Of a DNA stretch of 47,166 nucleotides, positions 3,316 to 26,303 are shown one piece after another. The notes below the pieces were generated by a model. It had not been told where the DNA came from. It saw nothing but the letters and a program-made list of their open reading frames with translations, and searched no databases. Both the position numbers and the translations under genes were made by a program. The stretch comes from Deltaproteobacteria bacterium (GTDB lineage Bacteria > Myxococcota_A > Polyangia > JAAYKL01), in assembly GCA_030595125.1 (NCBI GenBank), contig JAUVDV010000044.1, positions 1 to 47,166 of the forward strand, written 5' to 3'. Every line of letters starts with the position of its first letter. Position 1 is the first letter of the stretch.

Positions 3316-4521
3316 ATGATCGAGTTTGAAAAGGCCCTGAAGCTCATCCTTGAAAACACACCCGATCCCGCCGGAATATGCAAAGTCCCCTTGAGTGACG
3401 CATCCGGCAGGGTTCTCGCCTCGGACGTGGTTTCGGATGTGGACATTCCGCCGTTCAACAAGTCGGCCATGGACGGCTTTGCTCTTCGCGCAGAAGATCT
3501 CGAGGTCGTTCCGGCAAACCTGAACGTGGTGATGGATATTCCGGCGGGTACCACTCCGAGCGGCCCCATCGGCCCGGGCGAGGCGGCTTCGGTTATGACC
3601 GGCGCACCCATCCCACAAGGATCGAACACCGTCGTTCAGGTGGAGTGGACCAGCGGCTTCGGCGAGAAGACCGTGAAAATCGATCGATCAGTGAACGCCG
3701 GCGCCAACGTCAGCCCCCTCGGGGAGATCGTCGAGAACGGCGCTACGGTGCTTTCGAAGGGCACCCTCATCGATGTGGAGGAGGTGGCCCTTCTCGCCGC
3801 CGTCGGCTGCGATCCGGTGCCGGTCTTCGAGTTACCGTCGGTGGCCATCCTGACAACGGGCGACGAGATTGTCGCCCCGAGCGAGAAACCGGGGCCCTCG
3901 CAGATAAGAGACACGAACGGGCCGGCTCTTGCGGCGTTTGTCAGGAGCCTCGGGTTGAACCCCGTTCTCCTTCACAGGGTCGGGGATGACGTCGAAACCC
4001 TGAGACGCGCCGTCACCGAGGGTCTGGAATACGATTGTCTTATCATGTCCGGTGGTGTGTCCGCCGGCGCCTACGATTTCGTCGAGGACGTGCTGAAGGA
4101 ACTGGACGTCACGATCCACACCCGGAGGATCGCGGTCAAGCCCGGCAAGCCCACCATCTTCGGAACCCACGATAACAAAATGATCTTCGGGCTCCCGGGC
4201 AATCCGGTTTCCGGCATCGTCATTGCGAGGCTCCTGGTGGAGACCGCGCTCCGCGTCCGGATGGGACAAAACAATTCCGGCATCGTAACCGTGCGCGCCA
4301 GACTGACGAAGGACATTCGCAAGAAGGCAAACCGCGCCTGGTACATACACGGGACGTTGAGTTCGGGAAATGAGATCACTGTCACCCCGGTGGCCAATCG
4401 AGGCTCGGCGGATCTCCCCGCAGCTGCGCGAGGCAACTGCCTCATCGTCACCCCGAAGGGAGAGACCCTGATCGAACGAGACAGCACGGTGGATGTGGTC
4501 GTCTGGGAGCGTTCATGGTGA
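3316..4521 (+). CDS. moeA: Molybdopterin molybdenumtransferase MoeA
   Basis: MoeA inserts molybdate into adenylylated molybdopterin, the last general step of molybdenum cofactor synthesis. The 401-residue length is normal. Family motifs seen are N-K-S-A-M-D-G-F-A near the N-terminus, T-T-G-D-E-I-V, G-G-V-S-A-G-A-Y-D-F and G-L-P-G-N-P-V-S-G. ATG 3316 fits the usual MoeA start; ATG 3271 would add 15 residues and cannot be excluded, and neither has a strong Shine-Dalgarno site. The frame open back to 2962 is antisense to uppP and was not used. It is the first gene of a four-gene molybdenum cofactor operon and overlaps moaA by seven bases. Confidence 0.95.
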   Translation: MIEFEKALKLILENTPDPAGICKVPLSDASGRVLASDVVSDVDIPPFNKSAMDGFALRAEDLEVVPANLNVVMDIPAGTTPSGPIGPGEAASVMTGAPIPQGSNTVVQVEWTSGFGEKTVKIDRSVNAGANVSPLGEIVENGATVLSKGTLIDVEEVALLAAVGCDPVPVFELPSVAILTTGDEIVAPSEKPGPSQIRDTNGPALAAFVRSLGLNPVLLHRVGDDVETLRRAVTEGLEYDCLIMSGGVSAGAYDFVEDVLKELDVTIHTRRIAVKPGKPTIFGTHDNKMIFGLPGNPVSGIVIARLLVETALRVRMGQNNSGIVTVRARLTKDIRKKANRAWYIHGTLSSGNEITVTPVANRGSADLPAAARGNCLIVTPKGETLIERDSTVDVVVWERSW

Positions 4522-5483
4522 CGAAGCCCACAACAAGCCCCGCGACCGTCGATCAACACGGTCGTGTCATCAACTATCTTCGCCTGTCGATAACGGATCT
4601 CTGCAACCTGCGCTGCTTCTACTGCATGCCGGACGGCATTACCAACAAGCTCCCCCACGATCAGGTCATGCGTCACGAGGAAAACCTTGAGGTAGTGTAC
4701 GCAGCTGCCTCCCTGGGGATAAACAAGGTGAGAATCACCGGCGGCGAGCCCCTCGTCAAGCGCGGGGTGATGGGCCTGGTGTATTCCATCGCCTCCATGT
4801 CGGGCATCGAGACCGTGGCCATGACGACGAACGGTGTGCGACTGCTGGAAATGGCAGAACCGCTCAGAGCCGCCGGTCTCCAGCGAATAAACCTCTCCCT
4901 GGATAGTATCGACCCCGGGACCTACGAGGAGATCACCGGTGGCAACGAAATCCACAGAGTTATCGATGGGATGGACCGAGCTGTTTCCCTGGGATTCCCC
5001 GTCAAGATCAACGCGGTGCTCCTGCGCGGAATCAACACGGATAGGCTTTTTGAATTAGTGGCCTTTGCTCGGGAACACAATGTTGGCCTGCGGTTCATCG
5101 AGCGCATGGGTTTCGACAGGAAGGAACCCCTGTTTTCACAGGACGAGGCCATCGAGCAGCTCTCCGGGGATCACTCAATGGAACCCGTCGACACGAGCCC
5201 CGAGCATCCGCACGTGCGAAGATATCTCTGTGACGGGGTCAAGATCGGCTTCATCTCACCGATGACCCACTCCTTTTGCGCGAGCTGCAACAAGCTCAGG
5301 CTGCAGCCGGACGGCCGGCTTCGCGTTTGTCTGGCCTCCGAGCAAAGCGTGGATGTTCGTGAGATACTGAGAAGGGAGCACACCGTTGAAGACGTGCGCG
5401 ATGCGGTGAGAAAAGCCATTCAGATGAAGCCGGCTGCGGCCCCGTGGAATGCGCCCGCTGAGATGTGGAAGGTTGGCGGTTGA
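4515..5483 (+). CDS. moaA: GTP 3',8-cyclase MoaA
   Basis: MoaA is the radical SAM enzyme that starts molybdenum cofactor synthesis by converting GTP to 3',8-cyclo-dihydro-GTP. The N-terminal cluster motif is C-N-L-R-C-F-Y-C (Cys 30, 34, 37). The C-terminal substrate-binding cluster is C-x2-C-x13-C, starting at F-C-A-S-C-N-K-L-R. The protein ends in Gly-Gly, the conserved MoaA tail thought to reach into the active site. Length is 322 residues, complete. The ATG overlaps the end of moeA, with GGGAG just upstream inside moeA, indicating translational coupling. MoaC, which takes the next step, follows after 26 bases. Confidence 0.97.
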   Translation: MVTKPTTSPATVDQHGRVINYLRLSITDLCNLRCFYCMPDGITNKLPHDQVMRHEENLEVVYAAASLGINKVRITGGEPLVKRGVMGLVYSIASMSGIETVAMTTNGVRLLEMAEPLRAAGLQRINLSLDSIDPGTYEEITGGNEIHRVIDGMDRAVSLGFPVKINAVLLRGINTDRLFELVAFAREHNVGLRFIERMGFDRKEPLFSQDEAIEQLSGDHSMEPVDTSPEHPHVRRYLCDGVKIGFISPMTHSFCASCNKLRLQPDGRLRVCLASEQSVDVREILRREHTVEDVRDAVRKAIQMKPAAAPWNAPAEMWKVGG

Positions 5484-5509
5484 ACCGCCGGAAATTTGGG
5501 GTTTGAATC

Positions 5510-5986
5510 ATGAATAAATTGACTCATGTGGGCGAGGGCGGCGAGGCGAAGATGGTTGATGTCTCCACCAAGGAAGTGACCAGGCGCGTGGCGCGTGCGT
5601 CGGCCCGGGTGACCATGAAACCGCAGACCGCCGCCGCCCTGCGCGACCTCGAAAATCCAAAGGGAGATCCCCTGGAGATCGCCAGGATCGCCGGAATCAT
5701 GGCGGCCAAACGCACCGCCGACACCATTCCCCTTTGTCATCCTCTCGCGCTGGAGCACGTGGACGTGACCGCCACCATGACGAAAGACGGAGTGAATCTT
5801 GAATCGAGCATAACGGTTACGGGCAAGACCGGGGCCGAGATGGAGGCGCTCACCGCGGTGTCTGTGGCGGCGTTGACCGTCTACGACATGTGCAAGGCGT
5901 TGGATAAAAGTATGGTCATCGAGGGAGTTCGCCTGGAAGCCAAGAGCGGGGGCAAGAGCGGCGACTACGCGCGGGAGGATTCTTAG
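5510..5986 (+). CDS. moaC: Cyclic pyranopterin monophosphate synthase MoaC
   Basis: MoaC converts the MoaA product to cyclic pyranopterin monophosphate. The 158-residue protein is the standard length. It contains [12 protein letters not shown], the [12 protein letters not shown] stretch, and [10 protein letters not shown] with the two lysines expected in the active site. The start ATG follows a weak GGGG-containing leader. It sits in the moeA-moaA-moaC-mog operon. moaD and moaE, needed for the following sulfur insertion, are not in this window. Confidence 0.97.
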
Positions 5987-5989
5987 AAG

Positions 5990-6484
5990 ATGGAGAATAT
6001 AGCGGCCGTGATAGTTGCAAGCGATTCCCGATCCGACGGACGACGGGAGGACCTCACAGGGCCCGCCGCAGTGGAGGCACTCGAGGCGGTGGGGTTGGGG
6101 ACCGTCAAAGTTTCAGTGGTGCCCGATGAGGTCGATTCCCTCGCGAACGAGATGATCGACTGGTGCGATCGAGACGACGTGTTGCTCGTCCTCACCTGCG
6201 GAGGCACCGGACTGGCGCCGAGGGACGTGACCCCCGAGGCCACTCTGGAGGTGGTGGAGCGTGCGGTTCCCGGTATCGGGCAACTCCTGCGTCAGAAGAG
6301 TCTGGAGATCACTCCCCACGCTGCCCTCTCCCGGGGGATCGCCGGCATCAGGAACGGCACCCTGATCATCAATCTTCCGGGGAGCCCCAAGGCCGTGACC
6401 GAGTCCATCGGGTTCCTCGCCCCGATCCTTCCCCACGCCATCGAGACCATCTCCGGCCGCGCCACGGAGTGCGGAAGAAAATAA
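5990..6484 (+). CDS. mog: Molybdopterin adenylyltransferase (MogA/MoaB family)
   Basis: Enzymes of this family adenylylate molybdopterin before MoeA inserts molybdenum. The 164-residue protein is a single MoCF_biosynth domain: I-V-A-S-D-S-R near the N-terminus, a D-x-x-L-V-L-T-C-G-G-T-G-L-A-P-R-D core and L-P-G-S-P-K-A-V later. The start is three bases after the moaC stop, with GGAGG inside the end of moaC. MogA and MoaB names are used inconsistently for this family, so the exact symbol is uncertain while the role beside moeA is clear. It is the last gene of the molybdenum cofactor operon. Confidence 0.93.
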   Translation: MENIAAVIVASDSRSDGRREDLTGPAAVEALEAVGLGTVKVSVVPDEVDSLANEMIDWCDRDDVLLVLTCGGTGLAPRDVTPEATLEVVERAVPGIGQLLRQKSLEITPHAALSRGIAGIRNGTLIINLPGSPKAVTESIGFLAPILPHAIETISGRATECGRK

Positions 6485-10312: not shown

Positions 10313-12388
10313 ATGAAAAACAGAATCTCTGTCGCTTTAGTGACATCATCACCAAACAACGCCGAGAGCCTGGCCCTGCAGTATGTGGCAACTTCTGTTG
10401 AGAAAGCGGGCCACACTGCCGGTGTGTCGACTTTCAGAGGAGTTTCCGAGCTGGAAAGTGTGGCGCGCCGAATTGTTGACGCAACCCCTGAATTGCTCGG
10501 CGTTTCAATTCAGTCGGGCGTAGCCGCCATTGATAACCTGGCGTTTATCAATCGGGTGCGGGCGCTGGGCTACTCGGGTCACATCACCTGCGGAGGAACC
10601 TTTGCCACCATTTGCAGGCGACGGCTCTTCGATCAGTGCCGGCACATAGACAGCATCATTCGCCACGACGGAGAGATCCCCATTGCGTTTCTGGCAAACG
10701 CCATCGCGAACGACGAAGGGTTTGACTCGTTGCCGGGAGTCTCAACCATGTATGGCGACGGTCTGCCTGCGCCCGTCGGAAATCGAACTCATCTGGACGT
10801 CAGGCCGACACGGCAGTTCAGGAAACTCTACGCCGGCGTCCCGTCTGCGGAGATATCAGCTGTTCGGGGTTGTTTCGGCAATTGCAGCTACTGCGGACTG
10901 AAAGCTCTCAGACGTGAAGCTACTTACGAAGCCAGACAGTGCGGCATGAGTACCATGGAAATATCATCTGCCGGCGTGGGCCGCATAAGGCGCAGAAAGA
11001 TAGACTCCGTGGCAGATGAGATGGCTTATCTGTATCACGAAAAAGAAGTGCGATTCTTTCATCTTGTAGATGAAAACCACCTGCCCGGAGACTCATCCGA
11101 GGCCGCCAGGGTGTTGAACGATCTTAGCGATGCACTGGATGCCAGAGGGGTCCGCGACCGCGCGGTTAACCTCATGCTCCGGGCTGACGCCGCGACACAA
11201 CCGGTTTGTGAGGCACTGGATCGGCTGGGCCTTGTCCGCTGCCTGCTGGGAGTGGAGTCCACTACCGACGAAGGTCTGAAGAAGCTCGGGCGGGGCAACG
11301 GGACGTCGGTCAACACAATGGCTATGCACAACCTCGAACAAAGAAACATAGCCTTCCACTTCAACGTTCTGCTGATCACCCCGGACTCCACTATCGACTC
11401 CATATGGTGCGAGGTGGAGGGTCTTCGTGAAGTAAGAGGAGGGCTGCTGGACCCGTTCGCCCTGGAAGTTTACGAGGGAACAACCGTCTTTGAGGAGCTT
11501 CGCAAGACAGGTAGGCTGGAGGGCGGGCCCATGCTGTGGCACTACCGGCTGCAGGAGCCTGCGGCAAAGAGGTTCGCGCAGCTCTTTTACAGGATAAAAC
11601 GGGACGTGTTCGCAAAGGTGAACATGACCGCGTATGGATACGAAGTTCTCGGCGCTCTCGCGGTAGCAAAACGCCTCAAGCTCCTGAAGGACGATTCAGC
11701 ACAGATTGATGCCCTGGCGTCAGCGTTGATAAAAAAGCACAACGACCTCTGGATCAGTATTCTTGAGTCGACGCGAGTTCACGCCGTCTCAGATTCAGAC
11801 GAGGAGACCATCCATGGGTTTCTCGAAGAAACCGGACTCTCCGCTGCCCGCCTGGTGCTCGAGCTGAAACACCTGGAAACCATGGTTGAGCAGGGCTGCC
11901 GAAGACGCCTGAAGAGTGAGATATATTACCCGAGCGCCGCAGCCGCGGTGGCGATGTCACTTTCAATACTCTGCGGCTCTGCCTGCGTATCATGCAATCA
12001 CGTTGGTCCTGGAAACGACGCCGGTCCGGATACTTCAGTTGATGACACTGATACGACGACCGACACCGACACAGATACCGAGACAGACACCGACACCGAA
12101 ACAGACACTTATACGTGTTCGGAGCAGGAGACCAGGGAGGAAGGCTGGGGAGCCGTCAACACCGCAATTGACGCAGGATGTGACAACATCTGTGATCAGG
12201 GCGAAATGTTTGAGTACAGGCTGATTCTCGACGAAGAAGGTCACATGATCGACATGGAACGTGAGGACGGCATTCCCATCGATCAGGAGCTGATCGACTG
12301 CTACATCGCGGCCCTGGAGGGGCAGACCTTTCCCTGCATGGCAGAGCGTGATCACTTCTGGCTGTGGTGCGGAGTTCTACTATCCTGA
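10313..12388 (+). CDS. B12-binding-type radical SAM protein with a lipoprotein-like C-terminal extension
   Basis: Residues 1-170 look like a cobalamin-binding-type Rossmann domain, but I see no D-x-H-x-x-G cobalamin ligand motif. The radical SAM core follows, with C-F-G-N-C-S-Y-C (Cys 187, 191, 194) and a typical barrel; its substrate is unknown. The helical part ends near 535. Then, in the same frame, come a basic patch (R-R-R-L-K), a hydrophobic segment (about 541-557) with Cys 554, 558 and 561, a Thr/Asp linker (about 571-601), and a 90-residue domain with six Cys. The last domain resembles the TonB-C/AgmX fold (R-L-I-L-D-E-E-G-H ... C-Y-I-A-A-L ... F-P-C). The ATG follows AAAGGAGAG. An internal in-frame ATG at 11882 could also start the tail as a separate 168-residue lipoprotein. 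No frame break is seen. Confidence 0.85.
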   Translation: MKNRISVALVTSSPNNAESLALQYVATSVEKAGHTAGVSTFRGVSELESVARRIVDATPELLGVSIQSGVAAIDNLAFINRVRALGYSGHITCGGTFATICRRRLFDQCRHIDSIIRHDGEIPIAFLANAIANDEGFDSLPGVSTMYGDGLPAPVGNRTHLDVRPTRQFRKLYAGVPSAEISAVRGCFGNCSYCGLKALRREATYEARQCGMSTMEISSAGVGRIRRRKIDSVADEMAYLYHEKEVRFFHLVDENHLPGDSSEAARVLNDLSDALDARGVRDRAVNLMLRADAATQPVCEALDRLGLVRCLLGVESTTDEGLKKLGRGNGTSVNTMAMHNLEQRNIAFHFNVLLITPDSTIDSIWCEVEGLREVRGGLLDPFALEVYEGTTVFEELRKTGRLEGGPMLWHYRLQEPAAKRFAQLFYRIKRDVFAKVNMTAYGYEVLGALAVAKRLKLLKDDSAQIDALASALIKKHNDLWISILESTRVHAVSDSDEETIHGFLEETGLSAARLVLELKHLETMVEQGCRRRLKSEIYYPSAAAAVAMSLSILCGSACVSCNHVGPGNDAGPDTSVDDTDTTTDTDTDTETDTDTETDTYTCSEQETREEGWGAVNTAIDAGCDNICDQGEMFEYRLILDEEGHMIDMEREDGIPIDQELIDCYIAALEGQTFPCMAERDHFWLWCGVLLS
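12023..12115 (+). repeat. Thr/Asp linker repeat inside the radical SAM gene
   Basis: Repeated ACN-GAY codon pairs encode an alternating Thr-Asp/Thr-Glu linker of about 30 residues. Similar Asp/Thr linkers follow the lipid anchor in the lipoproteins at 24963, 32459 and 33870, and one precedes the sorting tail of the protein at 7764. Confidence 0.8.
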
Positions 12389-16873: not shown

Positions 16874-17998
16874 CTACTTCTTCTTGGCCGGCGCCTTCTT
16901 CTTGGCCGGCGCCTTCTTCTTGACGGGCGCCTTCTTCTTGACGGGCGCCTTCTTCTTGACGGGAGCTTTCTTCTTGACGGGCGCCTTCTTCTTGACGGGC
17001 GCCTTCTTCTTGACGGGAGCCTTCTTCTTGACGGGCGCCTTCTTCTTGACGGGAGCTTTCTTCTTAACGGGCGCCTTCTTCTTGACGGTTGCCTTCTTCT
17101 TGGCCGGCGCCTTCTTCTTGGCCGGCGCCTTCTTCTTGACGGGCGCCTTCTTCTTGGCGGGCGCTTTCTTGGCGACGGTTGCCTTCTTCTTGACGGGCGC
17201 CTTCTTGGCCAGCGCCTTCTTTTTGGCCGTTGTTTTCTTGGCTTTGCCGGCAGCCTTCGGCTTCTCGTCCGTGACCACCGGTTGCACGATAGTATTTTCG
17301 ATACGGGCTACCATGCGACCGCACGCCGGACACGAGTGAATGGGTTCGTTCTTGAGCAAACGACAACGAATACCCGTGGGCATCTGCATTCGACACTCTC
17401 TGCATATACCGTCAACCATGGTCGTAAGACCGACGCCGGAACGAGAAGTCCTCAACCGCTCGTATTTCTTCAGGAGCATGGAGGGGACACCCTTGACTGC
17501 CTCGGTCCGTTGCCTTTCCAATCGCCGGACGCGGGATTTGAACTTGCGGATTTCCTCTTCCGGCGCCTGCTGGGAAGACTGCACGTCGGCGGACCGTTTC
17601 TTTATCTTTCTTTCCACATCATCCAGATCTTCGCGCAACCGGCGGATCTGCTCCTCGGTCTCTGACAGCAGCACGGTGAGCTTCTCCTCCTCCATCTTCA
17701 GAGCTTCAGTGGAGGAGCGCGTACGCGATTTGAATGCGCCTGACTTGTTCGAGATAAGCCCCTTGATGGCGCTTTGAATTTCCTCGAGGGTATTCTGGTA
17801 CATCTCCTGTTGAGATATTGTCGCTTCGATGCTTTTCTCGATCGATTCGAGTTCTGCCCGCAGATTGTTCAGGGTGGAATCTTCGCGCATGGAACGCTGG
17901 AAAAGCTCTTCGACGACCATGTCTACAGCGCGAATTTTCAGATCAATTTCCTGCGCATTCAACAATTTTTCCAATGATTTCGGATCCCAATGTCTCAT
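16874..17998 (-). CDS. Coiled-coil C4 zinc-ribbon protein with histone-H1-like Lys/Ala/Pro tail
   Basis: Residues 1-190 form a long charged coiled coil, and residues 199-226 a C4 zinc ribbon (Cys 199, 202, 223, 226; C-R-E-C and C-P-A-C-G). Together these match the CdsZ/PF02591 type of coiled-coil zinc-ribbon proteins, usually about 240 residues. Here the protein is 374 residues because a tail of about 130 residues follows, made of K-K-K-A-P-V and K-K-K-A-P-A repeats like eukaryotic histone H1 or bacterial Hc1/HctB tails. The tail should bind nucleic acid or polyphosphate. The start at 17998 has AAGGA upstream. It is the first gene of a minus-strand operon with the DUF362 and polyferredoxin genes and is divergent from mnmG. 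Confidence 0.85.
   Translation of the reverse strand: MRHWDPKSLEKLLNAQEIDLKIRAVDMVVEELFQRSMREDSTLNNLRAELESIEKSIEATISQQEMYQNTLEEIQSAIKGLISNKSGAFKSRTRSSTEALKMEEEKLTVLLSETEEQIRRLREDLDDVERKIKKRSADVQSSQQAPEEEIRKFKSRVRRLERQRTEAVKGVPSMLLKKYERLRTSRSGVGLTTMVDGICRECRMQMPTGIRCRLLKNEPIHSCPACGRMVARIENTIVQPVVTDEKPKAAGKAKKTTAKKKALAKKAPVKKKATVAKKAPAKKKAPVKKKAPAKKKAPAKKKATVKKKAPVKKKAPVKKKAPVKKKAPVKKKAPVKKKAPVKKKAPVKKKAPVKKKAPVKKKAPAKKKAPAKKK
16877..17266 (-). repeat. 18-bp tandem repeats encoding the Lys/Ala/Pro tail
   Basis: About 20 copies of an 18-base unit (plus-strand form GGCGCCTTCTTCTTGACG, with GGCCGG and TTGGCG variants) encode K-K-K-A-P-V or K-K-K-A-P-A. Copies are nearly identical at the 3' end of the gene and more diverged toward the zinc ribbon, which suggests recent expansion. 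Copy number could vary between strains and be collapsed in assemblies. Confidence 0.9.
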
Positions 17999-24765: not shown

Positions 24766-24834
24766 CACCCGCAAAAAAGGTCTGGGTATGAGCGGGATTG
24801 GCATCCGCGCTTTGGCGAAATACCACAGACTGTC

Positions 24835-24862
24835 TTGACATCACGGTGGTTACTGCTGAAAA
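24835..24862 (+). promoter_or_regulatory. Possible promoter of the DUF1566 lipoprotein gene
   Basis: TTGACA (24835-24840) is a perfect -35 box. About 16 bases later lies TGAAAA, a poor -10 match. A nine-T run follows near 24872. The position, about 100 bases before the ATG, fits, but the weak -10 keeps confidence low. Confidence 0.3.
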
Positions 24863-24962
24863 ACAAGCGTCGTTTTTTTTTACCCGTTCATTATTTTGGC
24901 AACTTATCCGGCAAACGTCCGATTACAGGAAGGAACCTTTGAGAAACCTGAGGAGAGTTACG

Positions 24963-26303
24963 ATGACTGACAGATGCTTGTGGTTGGCGATCATGGCGAT
25001 TGTGGTTTCCGGGTGCGTGATTGACAACGCCGATTACGATCCGGATGCGGGCAACGGAGCGGACACCGACACAGACACCGACACGGACCCGAATTGCCAG
25101 GATGAACATCACGTCGGATGCAACGAAGATGGTGATGTAGCCTGGTTCGACTCGTGCGACGTTGAGGGTGATCTGGTGATGGATTGCGACGAGGAGCACG
25201 GTGGGTGCGTGGTGACCGGCGACGACCATGCCGAATGCCAGTGCGACGATCACTGGGATCCGGCCGCGGGTTGTTACCAGTGCGAAACGGGTTTTGCCGG
25301 GAGCGCGTGTGCGGTGTGCGAGGTCGGCTACAAGGGTAGCGAATGTGACGCCTGCACCGACGGTTATACGCTCGCGGACGGCGAGTGTGTTTACGACGAT
25401 TGGTGCGGTTCGGATCGCTACTGGCTGGTGGACGGAGATCTCCAGGCTGCCGAACGTCCGGATGCGGATTTCGACATCGAAGGCATCGTGGACGAGCCGG
25501 TGGTGGTGGACAAGGTGACAGGGCTGGAATGGAAGCGCTGCCTGGAGGGCCAGATCTGGAACGACAACACGTGTTGTGGGGACTCCACCAAGTTTGGCTA
25601 CAACGATATCAGCGCTGCGTGCACTTCTTCCTACGCCGGTCACGGCGACTGGCGGATTCCGGATCTCACAGAGCTGAGAACCTTACTTGTTCTGTACCCG
25701 GGCGTGTCTACCAATGAAACCATCTTTCCGGGGATCGATGATCCGGAACAGTTCACCTCCACTATCGTTCCGGGTGATATCCACCCCACCTACCTGTCGT
25801 TTATAGATGCCCACACGGCATCCGCCATGCACGTTGAAACGGGGCCCATCCGATGCGTTCGCGCGGGCGTTCCGGCCCAGGATCCACCGAGTCGTTTTCT
25901 CGTCGCCGCAGACGACGGGTCCACAGTGGTAGACACCTGGAGCGGCCTGGAGTGGCGGCGCTGTATCGACGGCGACACCTGGAACGGCGAGAAGTGTACA
26001 GGCGACGGAAGACCGGTGAGCTGGAGCGCGGCGCAGGGATTGTGTAGTGGGAGCTTCGCGGGGCACGACGACTGGTCACTTCCGTCCATCACGGCGCTCG
26101 AGAGCCTGAGCCGCGTGTGCATTGAGGACAATCCGTATCCCTCCGCCGTGTTCGCGAGAGACGATCATCAATTCCTCACCATGTGGAGTTCCTCGGAGGG
26201 CGGTCAGGGGGTGCAAGCTTTATACTTCGATCTTTCTGCGGACCAGATGGATTTTGTAAACAAGTCAGAACAACACGCCGCGCTCTGCGTCCGGGAGCCT
26301 TGA
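24963..26303 (+). CDS. DUF1566 (Lcl C-terminal-like) surface lipoprotein
   Basis: A 446-residue lipoprotein with lipobox V-V-S-G-C. After the anchor come a short Thr/Asp linker (four T-D pairs) and a Cys-rich EGF-like stretch (about 35-145). Two copies of a DUF1566/Lcl-type module follow. The first reads G-L-E-W-K-R-C ... G-D-W-R-I-P-D-L-T-E-L; the second reads G-L-E-W-R-R-C ... D-D-W-S-L-P-S-I-T-A-L. These modules resemble carbohydrate- or sulfatase-modifying-factor-type folds and are common in predicted surface proteins; the ligand is unknown. ATG 24963 is preceded by GAGGAGAG; the open frame to 24798 lacks a signal. It converges with the AgmX-like gene, 13 bases apart. Confidence 0.87.
   Translation: MTDRCLWLAIMAIVVSGCVIDNADYDPDAGNGADTDTDTDTDPNCQDEHHVGCNEDGDVAWFDSCDVEGDLVMDCDEEHGGCVVTGDDHAECQCDDHWDPAAGCYQCETGFAGSACAVCEVGYKGSECDACTDGYTLADGECVYDDWCGSDRYWLVDGDLQAAERPDADFDIEGIVDEPVVVDKVTGLEWKRCLEGQIWNDNTCCGDSTKFGYNDISAACTSSYAGHGDWRIPDLTELRTLLVLYPGVSTNETIFPGIDDPEQFTSTIVPGDIHPTYLSFIDAHTASAMHVETGPIRCVRAGVPAQDPPSRFLVAADDGSTVVDTWSGLEWRRCIDGDTWNGEKCTGDGRPVSWSAAQGLCSGSFAGHDDWSLPSITALESLSRVCIEDNPYPSAVFARDDHQFLTMWSSSEGGQGVQALYFDLSADQMDFVNKSEQHAALCVREP

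Follow-up and report, generated by a model that had tools for sequence, protein, structure and literature searches.

The window, that is, the whole stretch of 47,166 nucleotides analyzed here, carried at positions 10313..12388 of the forward strand a gene whose translation was a single stop-free frame of 691 aa. The gene as a whole was read as encoding a predicted cobalamin-type radical SAM enzyme fused to a lipoprotein-like internal signal and a domain of exported type, based on the open frame, a 12-member alignment, purifying selection and the presence of a tail throughout its clade.

A Pfam search identified a B12-binding-like domain (PF02310) at residues 8-124 (10334..10684), which scored 35.7 bits against a cut-off of 32.1, and a Radical_SAM domain (PF04055) at residues 183-352 (10859..11368), which scored 30.9 bits against a cut-off of 29.5. 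The radical SAM core contained the cluster-binding motif CxxxCxxC (CFGNCSYC, C187/C191/C194, 10871..10894), and its invariance in the 12-member alignment, together with the PF04055 score, placed the protein in the radical SAM superfamily. The PF02310 score and the cobalamin-enzyme fold neighbours pointed to class B, the cobalamin-binding radical SAM enzymes with an N-terminal B12-binding domain. In the predicted structure, the core was separated from the signal-like segment by a helical region (residues 416-529, 11558..11899) with helices at 416-433, 438-454, 462-493 and 497-529, all modelled with high pLDDT; an in-frame ATG lay near its end at 11882..11884. The internal lipoprotein-signal-like segment (residues 530-558, 11900..11986), recognized from alignments and charge pattern, consisted of RRRLK (part of CRRRLK, residues 529-534), a hydrophobic stretch and a terminal Ala-Cys. 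The Cys at the lipobox position was C558 (11984..11986), with C554 and C561 close by. An Asp/Thr linker followed, seen in the sequence (residues 562-603, 11996..12121), and then a TolA/TonB-C-like Cys-rich domain with an FPC motif (residues 604-691, 12122..12385), delimited by alignment, AlphaFold2 and Foldseek; six Cys fell within residues 601-691. The preliminary description of this DNA had placed the unbroken frame, the three cluster Cys, RRRLK, C554/C558/C561, the linker and the six-Cys domain where we found them; the B12-binding domain was absent from that description and was added by Pfam. Elsewhere in the window, moaA-, moaC- and moaB/mog-like genes, named by eye from their translations, stood in a row upstream on the forward strand (4515-6484), and the reverse strand encoded at 16874-17998 a predicted 374 aa protein with a zinc-ribbon-like CxxC region followed by a long terminal run of KKKAPVKKKAP repeats.

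Because the B12-binding and radical SAM domains were accompanied by an OxsB-like profile and fold, residues 1-529 were assigned from sequence to the cobalamin-type radical SAM enzymes, with predicted cobalamin binding and catalysis and with an unusual tail. The best PDB relative of the core in a sequence-profile search was OxsB (E 2.2e-13), and the predicted full-length structure was closest to OxsB, TsrM, TokK, CysS, MgmA and AprD4 in Foldseek. OxsB, TsrM, TokK, CysS and MgmA share with the window enzyme a radical SAM core with CxxxCxxC behind a B12-binding-like domain, at an identity of about 13-17% in structural alignments; unlike the window protein, they have no described internal signal or exported lipoprotein domain. 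The closest curated NCBIfam families by sequence were the hopanoid C-3 methylase HpnR, BchE, a ladderane-type rSAM and HpnJ. The scores for HpnR (62-64 vs 650 bits), BchE (44-45 vs 481) and the ladderane rSAM (30-32 vs 360) lay at about one tenth of the equivalog cut-offs, and linked lipid-pathway genes were not seen.

Conservation of the fusion and its junction

A relative from the same genus (L010/L029) was 92-93% identical and carried the same fusion. The differences between the two genes were mostly at third codon positions, and dN/dS was about 0.15 in the core, 0.14 in the signal-like segment, 0.05 in the linker and 0.13 in the tail. A single-protein contig search returned only the near-identical L029, from a deltaproteobacterial MAG. 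Within the family, 14 genomes were searched and 11 contained the enzyme core; the same long tail was present in most of the closer matches. In a set of 90 distinct, near-complete proteins of the enzyme family, every one of the 31 complete members of the window clade had a tail. No frameshift or stop of the kind left by an assembly error was found, purifying selection spanned the junction, and the relatives had the two parts fused or adjacent, not as separate unlinked genes. The fusion is thus a real coding sequence across the junction and not an assembly accident, since it was shared with a 92-93% identical relative under purifying selection and the tail was present in every complete clade member.

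The junction itself was conserved. C558 was invariant in all 12 members of the alignment, and a Cys ended the hydrophobic segment in all 65 fused members scored. The residue before this Cys was Ala in 36 proteins, Gly in 24, Ser in four and Thr in one, so that 64/65 had A, G or S there. The uncharged stretch leading to the Cys had a median length of 16 aa, and the flanking charges, net positive ahead of the segment in 54/65 proteins and net negative behind it in 58/65, fit an N-in/C-out orientation. A PROSITE-type lipobox pattern matched 42 of 66 fused proteins at the junction (a few of these matches being off-register) and occurred only twice in the 25,122 aa upstream of the junction in the same proteins. 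The window protein failed the strict pattern, having a Cys (C554) at position -4. Position -3 across the family was mostly Ala, Pro, Gly or Thr and rarely Leu, Val or Ile, unlike the ordinary lipoproteins of related genomes, which were taken from selected loci as controls. Because of the failed strict pattern and the unusual position -3, the site is best described from its sequence as lipobox-like and non-canonical. In one fused protein (L043), a signal-peptidase-I-like site, ADSALAQDD, replaced the junction Cys, and one separate lipoprotein partner (L129) likewise had no Cys; these two sites appear to suit an export signal better than a plain anchor.

Like bacterial lipoproteins, the window tail is preceded by a positive n-region, a hydrophobic stretch, a small residue and a Cys, and these are followed by a flexible acidic linker and an exported-type domain. 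The window protein differs from them in that the signal-like segment is not an N-terminal signal peptide: it lies internally at residues 530-558, after about 530 residues of predicted cytoplasmic enzyme, and the strict lipobox is missing. A Tat-type signal based on RRRLK was also considered and was rejected, since the run was not conserved in relatives.

The tail domain, tail classes and separate lipoprotein partners

The AlphaFold2 model of the tail had a pLDDT of 88.7. Its nine best PDB matches in Foldseek were eight TolA domains and HasB, all weak (best E 0.054, TM about 0.3-0.46). C623, G643, C663, F673 and C675 were invariant in the tail alignment (A2). Two of 11 homologous tails weakly matched myxo_SS_tail (NF033768; best E 0.0072), the window tail itself had no match to this profile up to E 5, and Pfam and NCBIfam gave no clear curated family for the tail. 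The likeness to the TonB-C/AgmX fold noted in the preliminary description was therefore weakly supported, by the low-scoring TolA fold matches and the two homologous tails, and not by a profile match of the window tail. The AgmX/PglI C-terminal domain (NF033768) and TolA/TonB-C resemble the tail in a beta-hairpin with helices, a turn Gly, and a Cys and 'FP' near the end; the tail differs from them in its extra Cys, its FPC motif and its attachment to a radical SAM enzyme, and it had no significant match to these families.

Ordinary proteins with AgmX/TolA-type tails occurred in the source genome. Homologous tails were also encoded on their own, as lipoproteins with ordinary signal peptides at the N-terminus, although these were rare, with three clear cases (L178 in genome G553, L184 in G003 and L186 in G013). 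No enzyme of the window clade was found in G553, and the tail domain can therefore exist without the enzyme. In G003, a family enzyme at C333:3325-5066 (L131) was tailless and split over two frames, and the standalone L184 lay on another contig. As for the linker, it had been claimed that four other genes of the window carry similar Asp/Thr linkers; strict scans did not recover four, but only the gene at 24792-26300 with a comparable linker and one further lipoprotein whose run was looser. Such linkers were nevertheless generic in the source genome, with about 93 further places, and in relatives of the window protein the Asp/Thr linker was replaced by different linkers.

A core match at E <= 1e-60 was found in 31 of the 379 genomes of the phylum, with up to 15 enzyme-family matches in one genome; this genome (G392) had seven tails of the window class among its fifteen matches. 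The fused tails fell into six classes: the FPC domain of the window protein (class A); 'VVDPPPPDAG' repeats ahead of an 'IDQWRDT' segment and an Ig-like domain (class B); 'PPPDPLPPP' (class C); 'EMAPRPP' (class D); 'VIEAPPPPMD' (class E); and an ASH-like domain (class F). The Ig-like and ASH-like domains were named by eye. Up to about 10 motif repeats were present in fused tails, and in five genomes the class B tail occurred only as a fusion with the enzyme. When tail class was mapped on the core tree, 10 changes were required, where the minimum was 8 and shuffling gave a mean of 40.8; one class B-tailed protein (L047) was scored as tailless, so the true fit is slightly better than this. Class A formed a single clade with full support. 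These results indicated that tail type follows the phylogeny of the enzyme core.

Other relatives had no tail, and in most checkable cases a separate lipoprotein gene adjoined the tailless enzyme. In a first group (L115-L122, L099, L101 and L129), the lipoprotein gene was mostly downstream of the enzyme gene and upstream in L099 and L129. These partners shared 'RxRTLxHLxxL', a hydrophobic stretch, a Cys and 'YGVVDPMPPPxxC' (alignment A4), with L101 being more distant, and several A4-type lipoproteins had a leader-like 'LMPEVLPDP' before the shared 'RxRTLxHLxxL'. The family of separate lipoproteins (L134-L153, L115-L122, L129 and L099), with the N-terminus 'LMPEVLPDP...RTRTLEHL', occurred as one to three copies beside tailless enzymes: there were two copies in L118, L120 and L129 and three in tandem in G362. 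A profile search of the phylum detected the A4 family in 9 of 379 genomes; an enzyme was adjacent in eight of them, and the ninth match lay at a contig end. The A4 profile also matched fused tails of classes B and C, in the region of the signal and DPxP (L042, E 1.1e-5; L077, E 2.3e-4). The separate lipoproteins gave no plausible match to a Pfam or NCBIfam family. A second lipoprotein family (L126, L127, L130 and L070), with the conserved 'GVPAxPGxxCAVxVxPVxSNxAARVTL', was encoded directly upstream of another clade of tailless enzymes. In addition, a product encoded just downstream of a tailless enzyme (L019:3207-4176) contained about eight 'VQEPAHF/Y'-type repeats and resembled a multi-copy motif substrate without a lipobox (L123, G004:C157).

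No other conserved neighbour was found in 41 neighbourhoods, which were called from open frames and not by a gene finder, with several relatives coming from fragmented genomes; the other clusters reported there were mostly antisense reading frames. Since the enzyme and the lipoprotein are fused in some genomes and encoded by adjacent genes in others, a Rosetta-stone pattern, the two are best read as belonging together in one system.

Possible roles of the tail

Four things are directly supported: the architecture is conserved, so is the Cys, enzyme and lipoprotein are paired by fusion or adjacency, and tail type is inherited together with the enzyme. From these we infer export, lipidation, cleavage, a substrate role and a chemistry as follows. 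With a probability of about one half, the gene would encode a single chain that combines an enzyme with its exported partner, the tail being a built-in substrate that is modified and then exported. Residues 1-529 would form a cytoplasmic cobalamin-type radical SAM enzyme, and residues 559-691 would form the lipoprotein-type part, consisting of the linker and the Cys-rich TolA/TonB-C-like fold. The hydrophobic segment would act as an internal lipoprotein signal, the chain inserting N-in/C-out so that the tail crosses the membrane. Cys558 would be lipidated and the chain probably cleaved there, which would free the tail as a lipoprotein and leave the enzyme with a membrane stub. Modification of the tail would most likely occur in cis, before export. 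Where relatives encode the lipoprotein as a separate neighbouring gene, the enzyme would work in trans, and the leader would be taken off by signal peptidase II. The chemistry may be C-methylation, a reaction known from other cobalamin radical SAM enzymes, and the fold neighbours OxsB, TsrM, TokK, CysS and MgmA are cobalamin enzymes that modify proteins or small molecules. The substrate reading was favoured over the alternatives of a tethered enzyme or a carrier because an enzyme can have several partner genes and because motifs are repeated within fused tails. It is weaker for the window class, because tails of this class have no DPxPPP motif, the link between fused and separate forms elsewhere, and because their domain also occurs without the enzyme; for the window clade, a substrate role is thus suggested by likeness of architecture.

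The main rival, which we consider possible but somewhat unlikely, is a membrane-tethered enzyme, in which the segment would be an uncleaved, possibly lipidated anchor at the inner membrane, the periplasmic tail would sense or dock, and the substrate would be elsewhere, for example a membrane lipid. The N-in/C-out charge pattern is consistent with such an anchor, a TolA/TonB-C-like tail could bind envelope proteins, and the closest curated sequence families include the lipid enzymes HpnR, the ladderane-type rSAM and HpnJ, although all of them were far below cut-offs. The median of 16 uncharged residues is, however, short for a membrane anchor, and a plain anchor would have no need of the conserved terminal Cys. 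The signal-peptidase-I-like site of L043, like the site of the separate partner L129, also argues against a tether, and neither the two or three lipoprotein genes found beside one enzyme nor the motif repeats fit it well.

It is improbable that the lipoprotein is a partner of the enzyme without being its substrate, such as a carrier, receptor or immunity-like protein for a small molecule made by the enzyme. The tight pairing and the diversity of the exported domains (Ig-like, ASH-like and TolA-like) would agree with this role, but none of the 41 neighbourhoods contained conserved biosynthetic or transport genes, and a substrate would better explain the copy number and the repeats.

The production of two proteins from one gene through the ATG at 11882 is very improbable. 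This codon is in frame and about 35 codons ahead of the lipobox-like site, but it was kept only in the near-identical relative; the other fused members had scattered GTG or TTG codons or, over the 12-45 codons that precede the Cys, no start at all, and a Shine-Dalgarno-like sequence was not conserved. The internal start was therefore rejected. An assembly or sequencing artefact that joined two genes, although the source genome is a draft of 203 contigs, was dismissed as having a negligible chance, since the fusion was seen independently in many genomes and genera and was under purifying selection. Of the three alternatives in the preliminary description, the built-in substrate thus came out ahead, on account of the systematic coupling to lipoproteins, their copies and the repeats; the tether stayed as its chief competitor, and the second start dropped out.

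On a wider scale, we tentatively propose that the phylum makes ribosomally produced, radical-SAM-modified lipoproteins, in which the enzyme is encoded beside its substrate or, as in the window, forms its N-terminal leader. In the fused form, the modification would take place in cis, and the lipoprotein machinery would cut and export the product, with signal peptidase II serving as leader peptidase. Radical SAM modification of ribosomal products is of a known kind, and borosins are fused enzyme-substrate chains whose methyltransferase is unrelated to radical SAM enzymes. As in RiPP precursor/radical SAM pairs and borosin-type fused enzymes, a leader-like N-terminus and a repeated motif were found here beside or fused to the enzyme, sometimes in several copies. 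A RiPP-like system would have its enzyme genetically linked to the precursor; here the enzyme was linked to a lipoprotein partner in 8/9 genomes, with the contig-end match as the ninth, and this partner is a candidate precursor. The present partners differ in that they are lipoproteins with a lipobox, not small peptides cut by a leader protease, and their modification is a prediction. The enzyme-lipoprotein arrangement was found neither in open-licence full-text papers nor in a curated family, and the coupling of a radical SAM enzyme to lipoprotein export appears to be new.

If this reading is true, cobalamin radical SAM enzymes of the phylum would modify surface lipoproteins after translation, giving a class that has not been described before and that has many paralogues in a genome (up to 15 matches), and an internal lipoprotein signal would split a single chain so that the enzyme stays in the cytoplasm and the product is exported. 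The pairs, whether fused or adjacent, provide a direct list of enzyme-partner couples, which makes the target of these orphan radical SAM enzymes testable.
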